From Planctomycetia bacterium (lineage in GTDB: Bacteria > Planctomycetota > Planctomycetia > Planctomycetales > Planctomycetaceae): DNA of 36,150 nucleotides. A program made the position numbers and the translations under genes. The DNA lies in the NCBI GenBank assembly GCA_016200145.1, contig JACQFH010000267.1:1-36150 (forward strand), given 5' to 3'. Position 1 is the stretch's first letter. Each line of letters opens with the position of its first letter. The notes under the pieces were generated by a model that was not told the DNA's origin, did not search any database, and saw nothing but the letters and a program-made list of their open reading frames with translations. Below, piece by piece: positions 3,344 through 19,574 of the stretch.

Positions 3344-3376
3344 TCCCCCCCTTCGTAAGGGGGGGGTAGGGGGGGT
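3344..3376. repeat. C-run/G-run palindrome, copy 1 of 3
   Basis: Seven C, then TTCGTAA, eight G, TA and seven G. The same plan (C7-9, a TT-NNN-AA centre, G7-8, a two-base spacer, a second run) occurs at 13915-13946 in opposite orientation and at 15719-15763. It lies just after the stop codon at 3340, so it might also fold as a hairpin at the end of that transcript. The rest of the 283-base gap up to 3623 shows no gene and no convincing promoter. Confidence 0.8.
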
Positions 3377-13838: not shown

Positions 13839-13897
13839 ATGACGAATTCCGAAATCCGAATGTTCAAGGAAACTCGCATTCCGAAATCCGAAATCCG
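13839..13897. repeat. Dispersed ATTCCGAAATCCGAA-type repeat
   Basis: The 15-mer ATTCCGAAATCCGAA occurs at 13846-13860 and 13878-13892, with a third partial AAATCCG after it. Sequence of this kind translates into 'MTNSEIR...' peptides that I recall at the ends of many planctomycete gene models, which marks it as a dispersed intergenic repeat rather than old coding sequence. Confidence 0.6.
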
Positions 13898-15155
13898 GTC
13901 TCGCATTCCACCCGCCCCCCCCCGCCCCCCCCTTGCGAAGGGGGGGAGAAGGACTGCACTCGTCTTTGCGATCGCTCTTCTTGCGGCATCGACCGCAACT
14001 GCACAGCACGTCTCCCTCCGATCGGTCGAAGTGACCGAGGGCGATGGAAAGATCAAAGCCGGCACCCTGACCGAGTTGGGGTCGGGACAGCTTGGGCTGG
14101 GCATGCCCGATCCGGCGCAATTCAAGACCCGCAACCTCGTGCTGCTGAATTTCAAAGAACGCACGTCGACCCTCGGACCGAACGATCCGCTGGTTGTTCT
14201 GAGCGGCGGAGACCGGCTGGCCCTCATTCCGGAATCGATCGACGACGAAGCACTCACGGGGCGCTGGGCCCGTGCACCGGCGCGGCAGGCGATCCGCGTG
14301 CCGCTCGAATCAGTCCGCGGGATCATTTTCGACCGGCCTTCTCATGCAGCCGGTTTTTCCCGACTGCTCGATCTTCTGCTTGACGGCGGCGAATCGCACG
14401 ACACGGTCGTACTCGGCAATGGTGATGTTCTTCAGGGGGAATTCGGCGGTTTGAACGAGAAAGAGCTGACGCTCTCGACCCCGGCAGGAAGGTCGTCAAT
14501 CGATCGCCAGGGATTGCGCGCCGTTATCTTCAACCCGACGCTCACGAACAGCGAACCGCTGCGGGGCGAGGGGGCGCTCGTCTCCTTGACCGACGGCAGC
14601 CGTTTCCGGGCGCGCGACCTGAAATTCGCGCCGCGCGACCAGCTCTCGCTGCGGCCGCAGTTTGGCGGAGAGCTGAGCATTCCGCTGTCTGACGTTGCGT
14701 CAGTCCGGTTTCTGGAAGGGTGCGCGACTTACCTGTCTGACCTGCCGCCGGCCGATTACAAGTTCGAGCCGTTCTTCGACGTCGAGTGGCCGTTGCGTCG
14801 CGATCGGTCGGTGGCGGGCGGATACTTGAAGCTTCGCGGCGCCGAGTTTCCCAAGGGACTGGGAGTGCACAGCCGCAGCGCGGTGACGTATCGGCTCGAC
14901 GGCAAGTTCCGCAGGCTGCACGCGATCGTCGGCATCGACGACTCCGCGTCGGGCAAGGGGAGCGCAATCTTCGAAGTCCTGCTGGACGGGAAAGTGGCAT
15001 ACAGGAGTGACGTGCTGACAGGAGCGAGCCCTGCCGCAAAAATCGACATCCTCAACCTGGCAGGCGCGAAAACGCTGACGCTGCGCGTCGACTTCGCCGG
15101 AGACGGCGATATTCAGGACCACGCCGACTGGTGCGACGCGCTGGTTGTGAAGTGA
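13839..15155 (+). CDS. Exported NPCBM-domain protein with repeat-derived N-terminus
   Basis: 438 residues if ATG 13839 is used; ATG 13860 is the only other in-frame start before the signal. The first 36 residues are translated from two dispersed repeats (13839-13897 and 13915-13946); then comes a signal-like helix TALVFAIALLAASTATAQH. No ATG, GTG or TTG lies between the repeats and that helix, so translation must begin inside the repeats. The middle has two or three short beta-rich blocks that look alike (DRLALIPESI, NGDVLQGEFGGLNEKELTL, DGSRFRARDLKFAPRDQLSL). The last about 145 residues match an NPCBM domain (LRGAEFPKGLGVHSRSAVTY, then FEVLLDGKVAYRSDVL, then HADWCDALVV), a carbohydrate-binding module found next to glycosidases. 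It follows the toroid gene by seven bases. Confidence 0.75.
   Translation: MTNSEIRMFKETRIPKSEIRSRIPPAPPRPPLAKGGRRTALVFAIALLAASTATAQHVSLRSVEVTEGDGKIKAGTLTELGSGQLGLGMPDPAQFKTRNLVLLNFKERTSTLGPNDPLVVLSGGDRLALIPESIDDEALTGRWARAPARQAIRVPLESVRGIIFDRPSHAAGFSRLLDLLLDGGESHDTVVLGNGDVLQGEFGGLNEKELTLSTPAGRSSIDRQGLRAVIFNPTLTNSEPLRGEGALVSLTDGSRFRARDLKFAPRDQLSLRPQFGGELSIPLSDVASVRFLEGCATYLSDLPPADYKFEPFFDVEWPLRRDRSVAGGYLKLRGAEFPKGLGVHSRSAVTYRLDGKFRRLHAIVGIDDSASGKGSAIFEVLLDGKVAYRSDVLTGASPAAKIDILNLAGAKTLTLRVDFAGDGDIQDHADWCDALVVK
13915..13946. repeat. C-run/G-run palindrome, copy 2 of 3
   Basis: Nine C, G, eight C, TTGCGAA, seven G: the same plan as 3344-3376 in reverse orientation. It is translated as part of the N-terminus of the NPCBM protein. 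Confidence 0.8.
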
Positions 15156-15170
15156 ATGACTGAGCGCAGA

Positions 15171-15191
15171 CCCACGGGAAAAACCCGTGGG
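15171..15191. terminator. CCCACGGG-AAAAA-CCCGTGGG hairpin
   Basis: A perfect 8-bp stem with a five-A loop, 16 bases after the NPCBM stop and 35 bases before the convergent archease stop. It is placed to end both transcripts, though no T run follows. The stem is shared with 16825-16847, so it may be a dispersed repeat in a terminator position. Confidence 0.5.
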
Positions 15192-15225: not shown

Positions 15226-15636
15226 TCAGATGTCGACGATGACTTCTGCGAGCCAGCCATCGCTCGTGCGTTCAACTTTGAGCTCGTGATACGTGATGGC
15301 CTTGATCTCGTGCGTGAGTCGGTGCCGACCAGCGTCGATCGGCTCGCCCCGCGCGGTGGCCACGAGGCCCGCGTCGTCGATCCGCAAGTCGAACTGCGAG
15401 AACACGAGCCGCTCGGTGTCGCACAGGTACAACAGCTCGTTAAGCCAGTCGAACAGCAGGTAAGTGACGTCGCTGCCGGCAACATGCAGCTCGCGCGACA
15501 TGGTCGGCTGTACCGACGCGAGGTCGTCGACCACCATCGCAAACAGGCCCCGGCCCGCATCGACGAACAGCTCGGGGAGCGCCGCCGCTCGCACGCGCAA
15601 ACCCAGGTCGGCCGTGTGCTCGAAGATTTCGTACAT
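15226..15636 (-). CDS. Archease, activator of the RtcB RNA ligase
   Basis: 136 residues, the usual size, from MYEIFEHTADLGLRV, which carries the H-T-A-D-x-G motif whose Asp binds metal. Further family marks are the central LLFDWLNELLYL and the end ITYHELKVER...LAEVIVDI, which closes with the conserved Asp-Ile. ATG 15636 was chosen because the longer frame to 15699 adds residues before the canonical start. Archease speeds guanylylation and turnover of the tRNA/RNA ligase RtcB; no rtcB is in this window. The upstream region faces the transporter gene and shares with it the C/G repeat at 15719. Confidence 0.88.
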   Translation of the reverse strand: MYEIFEHTADLGLRVRAAALPELFVDAGRGLFAMVVDDLASVQPTMSRELHVAGSDVTYLLFDWLNELLYLCDTERLVFSQFDLRIDDAGLVATARGEPIDAGRHRLTHEIKAITYHELKVERTSDGWLAEVIVDI

Positions 15637-15718
15637 CTTTTGTGTATCCCGCCCGCCGGCGTTATTGTGTCCCGAGCTGGCGACGGCAACAATCGCCACG
15701 CGACAGATTCAACCTAGT

Positions 15719-15763
15719 CCCCCCCTTTGCAAGGGGGGGGCAGGGGGGGGGGGGGGGGGGGGG
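15719..15763. repeat. C-run/G-run palindrome, copy 3 of 3, ending in 21 G
   Basis: Seven C, TTTGCAA, eight G, CA and then 21 consecutive G. It shares the plan of the other two copies but its last run has expanded. It lies at the beginning of the transporter gene, in the reading frame. The length as given may be uncertain because long G runs are hard to sequence. Confidence 0.8.
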
Positions 15764-15775
15764 CGATGGCTGCTG

Positions 15776-16594
15776 GTGGCGGCGGCCCTGCTCTGGAGCA
15801 CGAGCGGGCTGTTCGTGAAAAGCCCACCCCTTCAGGCCCTCGAAGAAAATGACCGAGCGCTGGTGATCGCCTGTTTTCGCGCGCTGATCGCCGGAACCTG
15901 TCTCTTGCCGTTTGTGAATTGGAAGCGGGCACGGTGGCACCTCAAGATGCTGCCGATGGTCGTTTGCTTCGCCGCGATGAATTTTCTGTTCATTGCCGCG
16001 CTGACACAGGGGACCGCGGCCGCCGCGATTTTTCTGCAATACACCGGCACCGGCTGGGCCTTTCTGTTCGGGGCGCTGTTCCTGAAGGAACCGGTGACGC
16101 GCGCCAATCTCGAGGCCCTCGCATTCGGATTCGCGGGCATCGTGTGCATCGTCGGGGGTCAGTGGCACGGGTCGCAGTTCACAGGAACTTTGCTGGCTCT
16201 CGGGAGCGGCCTGGCGTACGGCGGCGTGATTGCGTCGCTGCGGGCGCTGAACCGGGAAGACTCGGCGTGGCTCGTCGTGCTCAATCACCTCGTCAGTGGG
16301 GCCGTGCTGATTCCATGGGTGGCGACGCTGGGCCTTCTGCCGACCGGGCCGCAGTGGCTGGTGATCGGCGCTTTGGGCACATTTCAGATGGGATTGCCTT
16401 ACGTGCTCTTCGCGCGAGGGCTGGCGACCGTGCCGGCGCAGGAGGCAGGGTTAATTACGCTGCTGGAAGCGATCCTCAACCCGTTCTGGGTGTGGCTGTT
16501 CTGGAATGAGAAGGTGGCGCTCTCCACCTGGCTCGGCGGAGCGCTAATACTTATTGGACTGCTGGGCCGATATGTGGTCTTTCGCGGCAGGTAA
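15776..16594 (+). CDS. DMT-superfamily (EamA) transporter
   Basis: About 273 residues counted from GTG 15776; the true start is unclear. The hydrophobic pattern gives ten helices in two halves, with typical EamA marks: LLWSTSGLFVKS in helix 1, AMNFLFIAALTQGTAAAAIF, FLQYTGTGWAFLFGALFLKEP in the first half, and LPYVLFARGLATVPAQEAGL, then TLLEAILNPFWVWLFWNEK in the second. In this frame the sequence upstream of helix 1 is the 21-G tract (poly-Gly) and then the C/G repeat. No ATG lies in frame close by; TTG 15665 is a possible longer start. Long frames reaching 15464 run antisense to archease and are not credible. Substrate unknown, perhaps amino acids or metabolites. Confidence 0.82.
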   Translation: MAAALLWSTSGLFVKSPPLQALEENDRALVIACFRALIAGTCLLPFVNWKRARWHLKMLPMVVCFAAMNFLFIAALTQGTAAAAIFLQYTGTGWAFLFGALFLKEPVTRANLEALAFGFAGIVCIVGGQWHGSQFTGTLLALGSGLAYGGVIASLRALNREDSAWLVVLNHLVSGAVLIPWVATLGLLPTGPQWLVIGALGTFQMGLPYVLFARGLATVPAQEAGLITLLEAILNPFWVWLFWNEKVALSTWLGGALILIGLLGRYVVFRGR

Positions 16595-16824: not shown

Positions 16825-16847
16825 CCCACGGGGAAGCGTCCCGTGGG
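16825..16847. repeat. CCCACGGG/CCCGTGGG palindrome
   Basis: An 8-bp inverted repeat (extendable by one G-T pair) with a seven-base loop, the same stem as at 15171-15191. It lies upstream of the small zinc-ribbon gene and about 90 bases after the end of the SPFH gene; it may help to end the latter's transcript. Confidence 0.55.
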
Positions 16848-16935: not shown

Positions 16936-19212
16936 TTACGCCCGAGGTTCGCCGTTGGCGACGGGAGGTTCCTTTGTCTGCATCGAATCCATCGCCAGGC
17001 GCGTCATGCGATCGGAGAGTTCCTTGAGCTCCGCCTGGTCGGTACCTTCAGAGAGCTGGAACCCTGATTTCTCGGCGACCAGCAGGTTGATCAAGAGGCC
17101 CACCATGCCCTGGCTCGACGAAGAATGCCCGTTCTGACCATCGCCGCCGGCCACGAACACCCGCTCGGGAACGAGCGGTTGCTTGCTCTGAGCCAGTTGC
17201 TCTGAGACTCGCGACAGCGCGTACAGGCGCGGATCGCCGAACGACGAAATCTTCTTCATCAGCACCGATGCTTCCGCCAGGCCCACCTGCATCACGCGTT
17301 GCGATTCGCCCTTGCCCGAGAGCACCTTCTGACGGATCTCGGCCTCGGCGGCAACGACGGTCTGCTCGGCGGCCTTGCGGGCGCAGGCCAATTCGGCCTC
17401 GGCGACGACGATCGCCTGGTCAGCCTGACGCCGCGAACGGGCCAGGTCGGCTTCGGCCATCACCACCGTCTGCTCGGCCTGTCTCCGGGTGCGGGCCAGT
17501 TCGGCGGCAGCCTGGCTGTCGGCGATTTCGACCTGCACGCGGGCATTGGTGAGCTGCGTTTGCATCGTGGCCTGGGCCTGAGCCTCGTTCAGCAGCTTGA
17601 GTTTGTCGACCGCGTCGCGCTGCCTTTCGTAGGTTTCAAGCTGCTCGATCGAGAGTTGCCTCTGTCGCAACTGCTCGAGGAGCGTTTCGATTTTTCCGCC
17701 GGCCTCGGCCGTATCGGGTTTGCCGATCAGCACGTCGACGCATTCGATGTCGAATTCACGGAACCGGCGTCGCAGCTCTTCCCGCGCTTCGGTTTGAATC
17801 ACGTCGCGTTCGTGGAGCAGTTCGAGCATGGTCTTCTTATGGGCGATGTCCCGGAAAAACGCACTGAGCATCGGATCCAGCGTTTGTGTGATCAGTTTCT
17901 TCACGTCGCCAAACCGCTGAATGACGTTCGGCGCGCACTGGTAGTCGATGTGCACGACGACCGACAGCGGCAACTGCGGTTCATAAGCGTCCTTCGTGAC
18001 CAGATCGATCGACCGCAGCGATTCGTCGTAGCGGTGTGATTCGTTCTTGCCGGTGACCCAGTGCAGCACGAAGTTCGTGGTGGGGACCAGCACGATGTTC
18101 CCTGCGAACGTGTTAAAGGCGTATTTGCCCGGGCCGAGTGGCTTTTCCCACACCCCCCGTTCCCCTTCGGCGACGCGCTCGCCGTGACGGAACGCTGCTC
18201 CCGACAGGTCGCGCCCCGCCTTGCCGTAGTAACTGACAACGACGCCGACGTAACCGATCGGCACGACCGTCTTGGGGTGCATCTGCACCGAGGCAAACCA
18301 GCGGTTGACGAAGTACGTTCCGTCGGTGAGGGTCTGGTACTGCCGCCCGCGGCGGCCCCCGGCGCGCAAGAACGCCTCGGGATCCTGGAAATTATTGTGA
18401 TAGTTCGGATCGCTGGCCTCGTTGCCGACCGGCGGAGCGATAATCTCTCCCGGTTCGAGTGAAGCACCGTCGTGAATGGTGACGATGCCGATGCTGTCGA
18501 CGGTGATCGACTTCTCGGGATTGAGCGGATCCTGGGTCTCGATGCCTCCGCCGATGACGACGGGGCTGAAGCCTCCGATATCCGAGAGCACTTTCTGCCA
18601 GTCCGAAATCGCCTTCGTCTCCTGCGAGCCCTGCAGGTTGCGAAGCGAGAACACCGCGTCGTCGGCCATCACCACGAACAGGGCGGGATTGATGGCATAC
18701 ACCCCTTCGCGCAGGATCGAACGTTGCCGGCCGCGCTGGCCGCGCACCGACGGTGTGTTGCGCGCCGCCGCAATTCCCAGAAACGCGCGGGCGTCCTGGA
18801 AGTTATTGCACTCGACGATCCGGCCCAGAGTCTGGCTGGGGGGAAGCGGTTCGCCGTCGCGCGCATAAACGTAGCCGATCCGCCCCTGGCGGATCGTCAC
18901 CAGCGGCGCCTTGTGCAGGCGATACTGCCAGCGCCACAGCCCGAAGTGCAGTCCACCACGGAGCAGCTCGACCTGATAGCCGGCTTCGCCGTTGAGGGCC
19001 AGGATCTGACCCTCCGGCACCGAGCCGGTCGCCGACCACAGCTTCTCGACAATGCCGACCTTGTTGTGCGGAATATACCGCACGCCCAACCAGACGACGA
19101 CGGCCGCGGCTATCAATAGACCCACAGCGATCTGTCCGAAGCCGCCCAGTGACCAGATCGAATCGAAACCAGAGCGCGCCGAAACTTGAGCCACTACGAA
19201 TGAAGTGAACAT
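16936..19212 (-). CDS. Large SPFH/flotillin-type membrane protein
   Basis: 758 residues from MFTSFVVAQV; GGAGGGG lies eight bases before the ATG. One membrane helix (about 26-46, FGQIAVGLLIAAAVVVWLGV) is followed by VRYIPHNKVGIVEKLWSATG, as in flotillin-like proteins. Two similar blocks come next: CNNFQDARAFL...RGQRGRQRSILREG (135-170) and HNNFQDPEAFL...GRRGRQYQTLTDG (272-298), each leading to a short beta stretch. The SPFH part is about 300-500 (VVVHIDYQCAPNVIQRFGDV, then AFFRDIAHKKTMLELLHERD). A coiled coil follows, with three exact-length 18-residue repeats at 571-624 (ELARTRRQAEQTVVMAEA and kin). The C-terminus is a loose Ser/Gly linker and a helix. Such proteins oligomerise in the membrane as scaffolds. 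A frame reaching 19542 would cover the riboswitch and was rejected. Confidence 0.87.
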   Translation of the reverse strand: MFTSFVVAQVSARSGFDSIWSLGGFGQIAVGLLIAAAVVVWLGVRYIPHNKVGIVEKLWSATGSVPEGQILALNGEAGYQVELLRGGLHFGLWRWQYRLHKAPLVTIRQGRIGYVYARDGEPLPPSQTLGRIVECNNFQDARAFLGIAAARNTPSVRGQRGRQRSILREGVYAINPALFVVMADDAVFSLRNLQGSQETKAISDWQKVLSDIGGFSPVVIGGGIETQDPLNPEKSITVDSIGIVTIHDGASLEPGEIIAPPVGNEASDPNYHNNFQDPEAFLRAGGRRGRQYQTLTDGTYFVNRWFASVQMHPKTVVPIGYVGVVVSYYGKAGRDLSGAAFRHGERVAEGERGVWEKPLGPGKYAFNTFAGNIVLVPTTNFVLHWVTGKNESHRYDESLRSIDLVTKDAYEPQLPLSVVVHIDYQCAPNVIQRFGDVKKLITQTLDPMLSAFFRDIAHKKTMLELLHERDVIQTEAREELRRRFREFDIECVDVLIGKPDTAEAGGKIETLLEQLRQRQLSIEQLETYERQRDAVDKLKLLNEAQAQATMQTQLTNARVQVEIADSQAAAELARTRRQAEQTVVMAEADLARSRRQADQAIVVAEAELACARKAAEQTVVAAEAEIRQKVLSGKGESQRVMQVGLAEASVLMKKISSFGDPRLYALSRVSEQLAQSKQPLVPERVFVAGGDGQNGHSSSSQGMVGLLINLLVAEKSGFQLSEGTDQAELKELSDRMTRLAMDSMQTKEPPVANGEPRA
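17341..17502 (-). repeat. Three in-frame 54-bp tandem units
   Basis: Within the SPFH gene, residues 571-588, 589-606 and 607-624 are copies of an 18-residue heptad-like unit (ELA-R/C-x-R-x-A-E-Q-x-V-V-x-A-E-A). They build the coiled coil that follows the SPFH domain. Not a CRISPR array, as there are no spacers. Confidence 0.8.
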
Positions 19213-19314
19213 GAAAGTCCCCTCCGGCGCGGCAGACCGCGCGAGCACCAGGGACGGGGCAGCCGCTCGGGGTTGATCTTGCCCGGGCCGCCTCCACCTC
19301 AGGTGGGATACGCC

Positions 19315-19374
19315 TCTGCCGCGCCAAAAAACCAGCAGGGCTCTTCGTCGTGCCAGCGCGAAGAGCGCGGCAGA
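19315..19374 (-). promoter_or_regulatory. Possible expression platform of the riboswitch
   Basis: Between the aptamer and the SPFH start, a perfect 10-bp stem (TCTGCCGCGC at 19315-19324 with GCGCGGCAGA at 19365-19374) encloses an 8-bp hairpin (19340-19366, GCTCTTCG/CGAAGAGC). On the minus strand the hairpin is followed after eight bases by six T (19326-19331). The two stems overlap by two bases, so they could compete. The gap before the T run makes a strong intrinsic terminator doubtful. Confidence 0.4.
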
Positions 19375-19416
19375 GCGGGGGTGCCCTTTCAAATAGGGCC
19401 ACGGCACCGAGCCGCG

Positions 19417-19545
19417 ACCGCCGACGAGGTTAGCTGACGGGCTAGGGCTTGAAAGTACCCCGGTTCGAAATCTCGAACCTGCGCCCCTGGAGAAAGCCGT
19501 CGTGAAACGGCCTCCCCGATGGTTCCCCCGCACCGGCGCCACAAG
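19417..19545 (-). ncRNA. c-di-AMP riboswitch (ydaO/yuaA class) upstream of the SPFH gene
   Basis: Reading the minus strand, the conserved blocks of the ydaO aptamer appear in order: GCGGGGGAACC (compare CGGAGGAACC in the Thermoanaerobacter tengcongensis aptamer as I recall it), a variable hairpin (GGCCGTTTCACGACGGC), AGGGGCGCA (compare GGGGUUAAUC), a second hairpin (GGTTCGAGATTTCGAACC), GGGGTACTTTCAAGCCC (compare GGGAUACCUUCUGUCCC), and CCCGTCAGCTAACCTCGTCG (compare CCCGACAGCUAACUCCGGAG). A closing helix can be drawn as CGCCG/CGGCG, but that pairing is the least certain part. The element begins about 20 bases after a promoter start and ends about 205 bases before the ATG. In this class ligand binding usually lowers expression. 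Confidence 0.82.
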
Positions 19546-19574
19546 GACGCCGAATTAGGCTACACAGGAGTCAT

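Follow-up and report, generated by a model that had tools for sequence, protein, structure and literature searches.

Intrastrand triplex repeats and variable G tracts

The class II purine-motif intrastrand triplex is laid out as a C arm, a loop, a G arm, a short loop and a second G arm (Holder et al. 2015, PMC4666352). In the sections of that paper drawn on here, a related E. coli sequence forms a stable triplex in vitro and causes polymerase stops in vitro, a stable triplex is not found in vivo, and small deletions, together with other changes and rearrangements, are commoner at such loci among E. coli strains. Many REP elements found at the NH2 end of genes may be extragenic, through misannotated starts, according to the part of Di Nocera et al. 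(2013, PMC3733652) considered. G/C tracts of at least eight nucleotides are mostly variable in Neisseria meningitidis (PMC5084427, in the portion used), and by analogy G/C homopolymers as long as 21 would be expected to be unstable.

The G tract is one arm of a dispersed element

The window, which is the whole stretch of 36,150 nucleotides analysed, belongs to an 8.28 Mb planctomycete MAG of 742 contigs. Its forward strand at 15719-15763 reads C7, TTTGCAA, G8, CA and G21, followed by CGATGG, in agreement with a first-pass annotation that had described a C/G-run palindrome ending in 21 consecutive G. The 21 G precede the frame of an EamA-family transporter, the first codons of which follow directly (CGATGGCTGCTG). 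The tract is far beyond chance expectation, as 10 overlapping 12-G matches are seen in the window against a mean of 0.01 in dinucleotide shuffles, and approximately 0.0004 G runs of 21 or more would be expected in the 8.28 Mb genome under an independent-base model. That annotation overlooked that the tract forms one arm of a repeat dispersed over the genome, three copies of which lie in the window:

15719..15763, + strand: dispersed C-G-G element, whole copy with class II intrastrand-triplex layout (83 strict cores in the genome, backwards control 0)
15719..15725, + strand: C7 arm, pyrimidine strand of the hairpin (sequence, copy consensus)
15733..15740, + strand: G8 arm, partner of the C arm (hairpin in DNA fold, sequence, copy consensus)
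15743..15763, + strand: second G arm, proposed third strand of a triplex, with 21 G where 7 is usual (sequence, copy consensus)
3345..3375, + strand: element copy with arms of 7/8/7
13915..13946, - strand: element copy with arms of 7/8/9 as read on that strand

The strict core is CCCCCTTNNNAAGGGGG. When 15640-15900 was compared by BLAST with its own genome, at least 43 matches were found, a lower bound with 40 of the 134 candidates scored; these are the window itself and at least 42 others, all of them limited to the element. The consensus from 60 distinct cores, which come from fetched contigs rather than from all copies in the genome, is T, C7, TTNNNAA, G7-8, 1-4 nt, G7, (T)CG. A second G run is present in 42 of the 60, and a few of the loosest cores that lack it may be chance matches.

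ITxF stems follow the order C-G-G and are 6-15 nt long; those at 15719-15763 are C7, G8 and G21 (at least 7 usable), and all 42 complete copies are three-armed, a few having arms of 4-5 nt. For loops of 1-6 nt, the second loop conforms (1-4 nt), and the first is 7 nt, or 3 nt if its TT and AA pair as they do in the predicted fold. Folding of the region as DNA gave z = -1.37 relative to shuffles, with a program that does not model triplexes. A further ITxF criterion is enrichment over scrambled sequence: the window has 3 C6-G6-G6 motifs, whereas 10 dinucleotide shuffles of it gave 0, and 20 contigs picked for element or transposase candidates have 20, with a shuffle maximum of 0. A sample of 60 other contigs, taken by number and totalling 0.58 Mb with many of them short, has 0 complete motifs, with a shuffle mean of 0.1; thus, the copies are unevenly spread. 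From its order of bases, the element is best read as having a class II intrastrand-triplex layout, and triplex folding is proposed for it.

Distribution among the 40 genomes compared is patchy. Strict cores number 83 in the own genome (G000), 6 in G001, 24 in G004, 170 in G012 and 1 in G036, and the other 35 have none.

The window copy at 13915-13946 lies immediately ahead of, and in frame with, what is probably the signal peptide of an NPCBM-domain protein (13839-15155). The start of this protein is also doubtful, because its in-frame ATG sits upstream in another repeat (TTCCGAAATCCGAA). Hairpins of the form CCCACGGG...CCCGTGGG are found at 15171-15191 and 16825-16847, 3' of two genes, and there are 5 in the 0.95 Mb of fetched sequence including the window; they are possibly another type of dispersed palindrome or of terminator.

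Relationship to described repeats

In its C-G-G arm order, tens of copies and G/C-rich composition, the element resembles the PIT, BoxC and TM-ECO elements as described in the portion of PMC4666352 used. Some copies also occur in inverted pairs (contigs C95 and C507), and copies are many in some relatives and absent in others. The TM-ECO/BoxC family consensus given there, CCCTCNCCC N3-6 GGGNGAGGG N3 GGGNGAGGG, does not describe it, as the arms are pure C or G runs, C7/G7/G7 in place of CCCTCNCCC/GGGNGAGGG. The first loop TTNNNAA, the (T)CG end, the planctomycete host and, in this copy, the third arm of 21 nt further distinguish it from PIT, BoxC and TM-ECO. None of the papers searched contained both 'intrastrand triplex' and 'Planctomycet'; thus, a planctomycete family of class II type seems undescribed among them.

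With the REP elements, as presented in the part of PMC3733652 considered, the family shares a short, palindromic, dispersed nature and an occasional position at or inside the 5' ends of genes. However, it differs from the GTAG and CGTC super-families in its asymmetric third arm and in lacking their tags, the commonest ends being TCGC (14), TCGG (7), CGGG (6) and TGTC (5) among the 42 copies. Ownership by a RAYT was considered and rejected, as no copy lies beside any of the 7 Y1_Tnp matches in the genome, some of these loci being cut by contig ends. The tract itself is like the poly-G/C contingency loci of Neisseria meningitidis (PMC5084427) and Campylobacter (PMC8355987), in the parts of those papers used, in that a long run of G lies close to the 5' end of a gene for a membrane protein. 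Unlike them, it is an arm of a dispersed repeat, it is not conserved at the gene, and it has no defined start upstream.

The EamA locus in relatives

The features flanking the element are as follows:

15226..15636, - strand: divergent archease gene, starting at ATG 15636 as aligned with relatives (PF01951, E 3.5e-43)
15665..15667, + strand: TTG, the nearest canonical in-frame start upstream of the tract, without a Shine-Dalgarno-like sequence
15764..16594, + strand: EamA-family transporter gene, from its first conserved residue (RWLLV), with an ambiguous start codon (PF00892, E 9e-27)
15776..15778, + strand: GTG in frame downstream of the tract; starting here would place the tract in the leader and make helix 1 shorter

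The EamA frame has 276 codons from CGA 15764 and scores 94.4 bits against PF00892 (curated cut-off 28.2). As had been annotated, the tract is in frame with the first membrane helix, the frame being open through it from CGA 15764. Of 40 genomes, 25 have an EamA homologue, the window's own genome among them, and an alignment-based search of the named collection gave the best 80 of 266 qualifying loci. Among those 80 loci and the 40 genomes, the closest homologue is that of G001, with 80% identity.

Relatives start with ATG, GTG or TTG approximately 7-23 codons before the conserved RLLLV and first helix, the G001 protein beginning MSSERVPPKSWSG-RLLLV. Among the best 80 of 266 loci, 66 have an ATG no more than 45 codons upstream, and the other 14 have a GTG or TTG nearby. 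In the window, the element occupies the place of this start region. The same 80 loci were scanned over the 250 nt preceding the match start and the 30 nt following it, or as much of this as each locus covers, and in none was there a C5-G5 hairpin core or a G/C run of at least 10. The divergent archease/EamA pair is found in 5 of the 80 and in 3 of 23 other loci of the first set. This order is kept in relatives, and both flanks of the element therefore belong together.

The leader to the left of the element was compared with the 80 leaders by local alignment. For L267 and L338, 0 of 200 shuffles aligned as well, and for L268, 2 of 200; the L267 match spans its ATG, and L268 shares with the window leader a 12-nt match, GCAACAATCGCC. 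This suggests an old EamA start at ACG 15698, in frame and upstream of the element, from a leader match that is weak after 80 tests. G001 aligns a similar leader stretch approximately 130 nt before its own start, and a MAFFT alignment of the window and G001 leaders was uninformative.

Arm length, slippage and assembly

The 42 complete copies examined have 126 arm runs between them; 124 measure 4-10 nt and the remaining two exactly 21 nt each. The second 21-nt run is the C arm of a copy on contig C149 (16659-16679). Counted over the whole genome, 16 G/C runs reach at least 10 nt: ten of these are 10 nt long, three are 11, one is 13 and two are 21. Five of the 16, both 21s among them, fall in element copies, and none is of 14-20. 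The tract is an outlier of a tight arm-length distribution, without intermediates. The 13-G run lies outside any element, in AT-rich sequence before a possible membrane-protein reading frame (contig C104, approximately 2725-2737).

On balance, it is probable that the tract arose by slippage expansion in the third arm of a triplex-type repeat beside the gene start. While replication leaves the G-rich strand single-stranded, the C arm would fold with both G arms into a hairpin or triplex, the folded arms would stall the polymerase, and slippage in the unpaired third arm would lengthen it from approximately 7 to 21 G. The element would sit by chance where relatives have their EamA start, and its lengthening may alter the leader or an N-terminal extension as a by-product. 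This explanation is weakened by the lack of runs of 14-20 in the genome, since gradual slippage should leave such intermediates, and it leaves two runs of exactly 21 in one genome as an unexplained coincidence. The folding step is further weakened because the sections of PMC4666352 used find no stable triplex in vivo, where triplex competes with duplex.

An assembly artefact is a rather unlikely alternative, in which the G arm was lengthened or bridged during short-read assembly by way of a poly-G k-mer, the assembler perhaps passing over the true gene start. Possible sources of poly-G are assembly at k = 21 and dark-cycle poly-G. We give this alternative its weight because both overlong runs in the 742-contig MAG are exactly 21, with nothing between 14 and 20; because the native genes of relatives carry GGGCG or similar where the element ends (CACGGGCGATGG in G023, AGCGGGCGGTTG in G001), a site at which sequences could easily be joined falsely; and because the window lacks the start region that relatives have. 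Several poly-G/C runs in related MAGs are likewise at contig ends. However, the runs in related genomes range in length from 17 to 52, and those of 17-20 are also found on contigs of more than 1 Mb (G269:C1, G035:C1, G309:C1 and G204:C1). Exact-21 G runs occupy 21 places against 23 for exact-20 in 80 related genomes, hand-picked and non-random, of the 103 with a run of at least 17. This count has no excess at 21, which weakens the idea of a ceiling set by assembly at k = 21. The conserved divergent order of the archease and EamA genes also argues against a false join. A detached EamA 5' end elsewhere in the MAG was sought and rejected: neither window flank recurs in the assembly among the 40 of 134 candidates scored, and the 252-nt leader of G001 finds only a chance-level match of 20 nt (E 0.0115), although leaders may be too diverged to detect.

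Within the class, 103 of 397 related planctomycete genomes have G/C runs of at least 17. They are many in G103, G192, G249 and G278, and are often near contig ends, with some on contigs of more than 1 Mb.

Possible starts of the EamA gene

The frame at 21 G is open 100 codons upstream of the gene, from 15464, with in-frame starts at TTG 15665, GTG 15614, ATG 15500 and GTG 15464. The last three overlie the antisense archease gene, and ATG 15500 is the nearest in-frame ATG upstream, which bears out the earlier remark that none is close by. ATG 15766, directly 3' of the tract, cannot be brought into frame by any change in tract length. Read by eye, none of the listed upstream start contexts holds a Shine-Dalgarno-like sequence. 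With 20 or 23 G the frame would reach TTG 15727, and with 19 or 22 G it would extend to a GTG close to where the archease gene begins. At every tract length tested, 18-24 G, a weak non-ATG start lies somewhere upstream in the open frame, so that a clean on/off switch is not evident.

It had been proposed that changes in tract length could vary the translated start between cells. The instability expected of long G/C tracts fits this in part; a clean switch does not follow from it, as every phase reaches some weak start, no upstream start has a Shine-Dalgarno-like sequence, and a start at GTG 15776 would leave the tract untranslated. A slippage switch of EamA is possible in principle, without a clear on state. 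The full form of such a phase-variable switch, in which translation begins at TTG 15665 or some non-canonical codon, the element encodes an N-terminal extension and tract length sets the frame, appears improbable. In its favour, the frame at 21 G runs open from 15464 across the tract, the tract has a length that would be hypermutable by analogy with contingency loci, and the resemblance of the leader to the L267 and L268 start regions would put the old start at ACG 15698. However, this leader match is weak after 80 tests, the nearest relative aligning the same stretch well before its start, and the reading has neither an ATG nor a Shine-Dalgarno-like sequence. Its off states are unclean, as a GTG or TTG is also within reach of the frame at 19 or 22 G and at 20 or 23 G, and the element is not conserved at the gene among the best 80 of 266 loci. 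Since the repeat is genome-wide, with arms normally of approximately 7 nt, the tract did not evolve with the EamA gene, and it is no evidence of an evolved switch.

Alternatively, the tract may be untranslated, altering only the leader or promoter spacing, if anything, with the gene starting at GTG 15776 or decaying after loss of its start; this we consider unlikely. GTG 15776 is the nearest canonical start in frame and is preceded by a G-rich stretch, but its use would remove RWLL from helix 1 along with the extension seen in relatives. Gene decay is not visible, because none of the 276 codons is disrupted and identity with the G001 homologue is 80%. Promoter and terminator consensus sequences were searched for at 15500-15900 and none was found. 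The absence of a promoter match in that interval argues against a spacing that could vary.

The probabilities that we attach to slippage expansion and to its alternatives overlap in part and do not sum to one. The analysis ties an odd G tract to a genome-wide repeat with the layout of an intrastrand triplex. Should the expansion from 7 to 21 be real, repeats of this kind could give rise to hypermutable stretches where genes begin; should it be an artefact, it would call for caution in interpreting poly-G tracts in MAGs built from short reads. There is little support here for the idea that phase-variable gene starts are seeded by a dispersed repeat. It is very doubtful that the element is a portable generator of contingency loci, the self-folding of which would expand the third G arm and make gene starts hypermutable and phase-shifting.

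A search of Rfam gave no family at the tract and a single one farther away, a c-di-AMP riboswitch (RF00379, 55.8 bits) at 19404-19571 on the minus strand, at the 5' end of an 868-aa ORF (16936-19542, minus strand).
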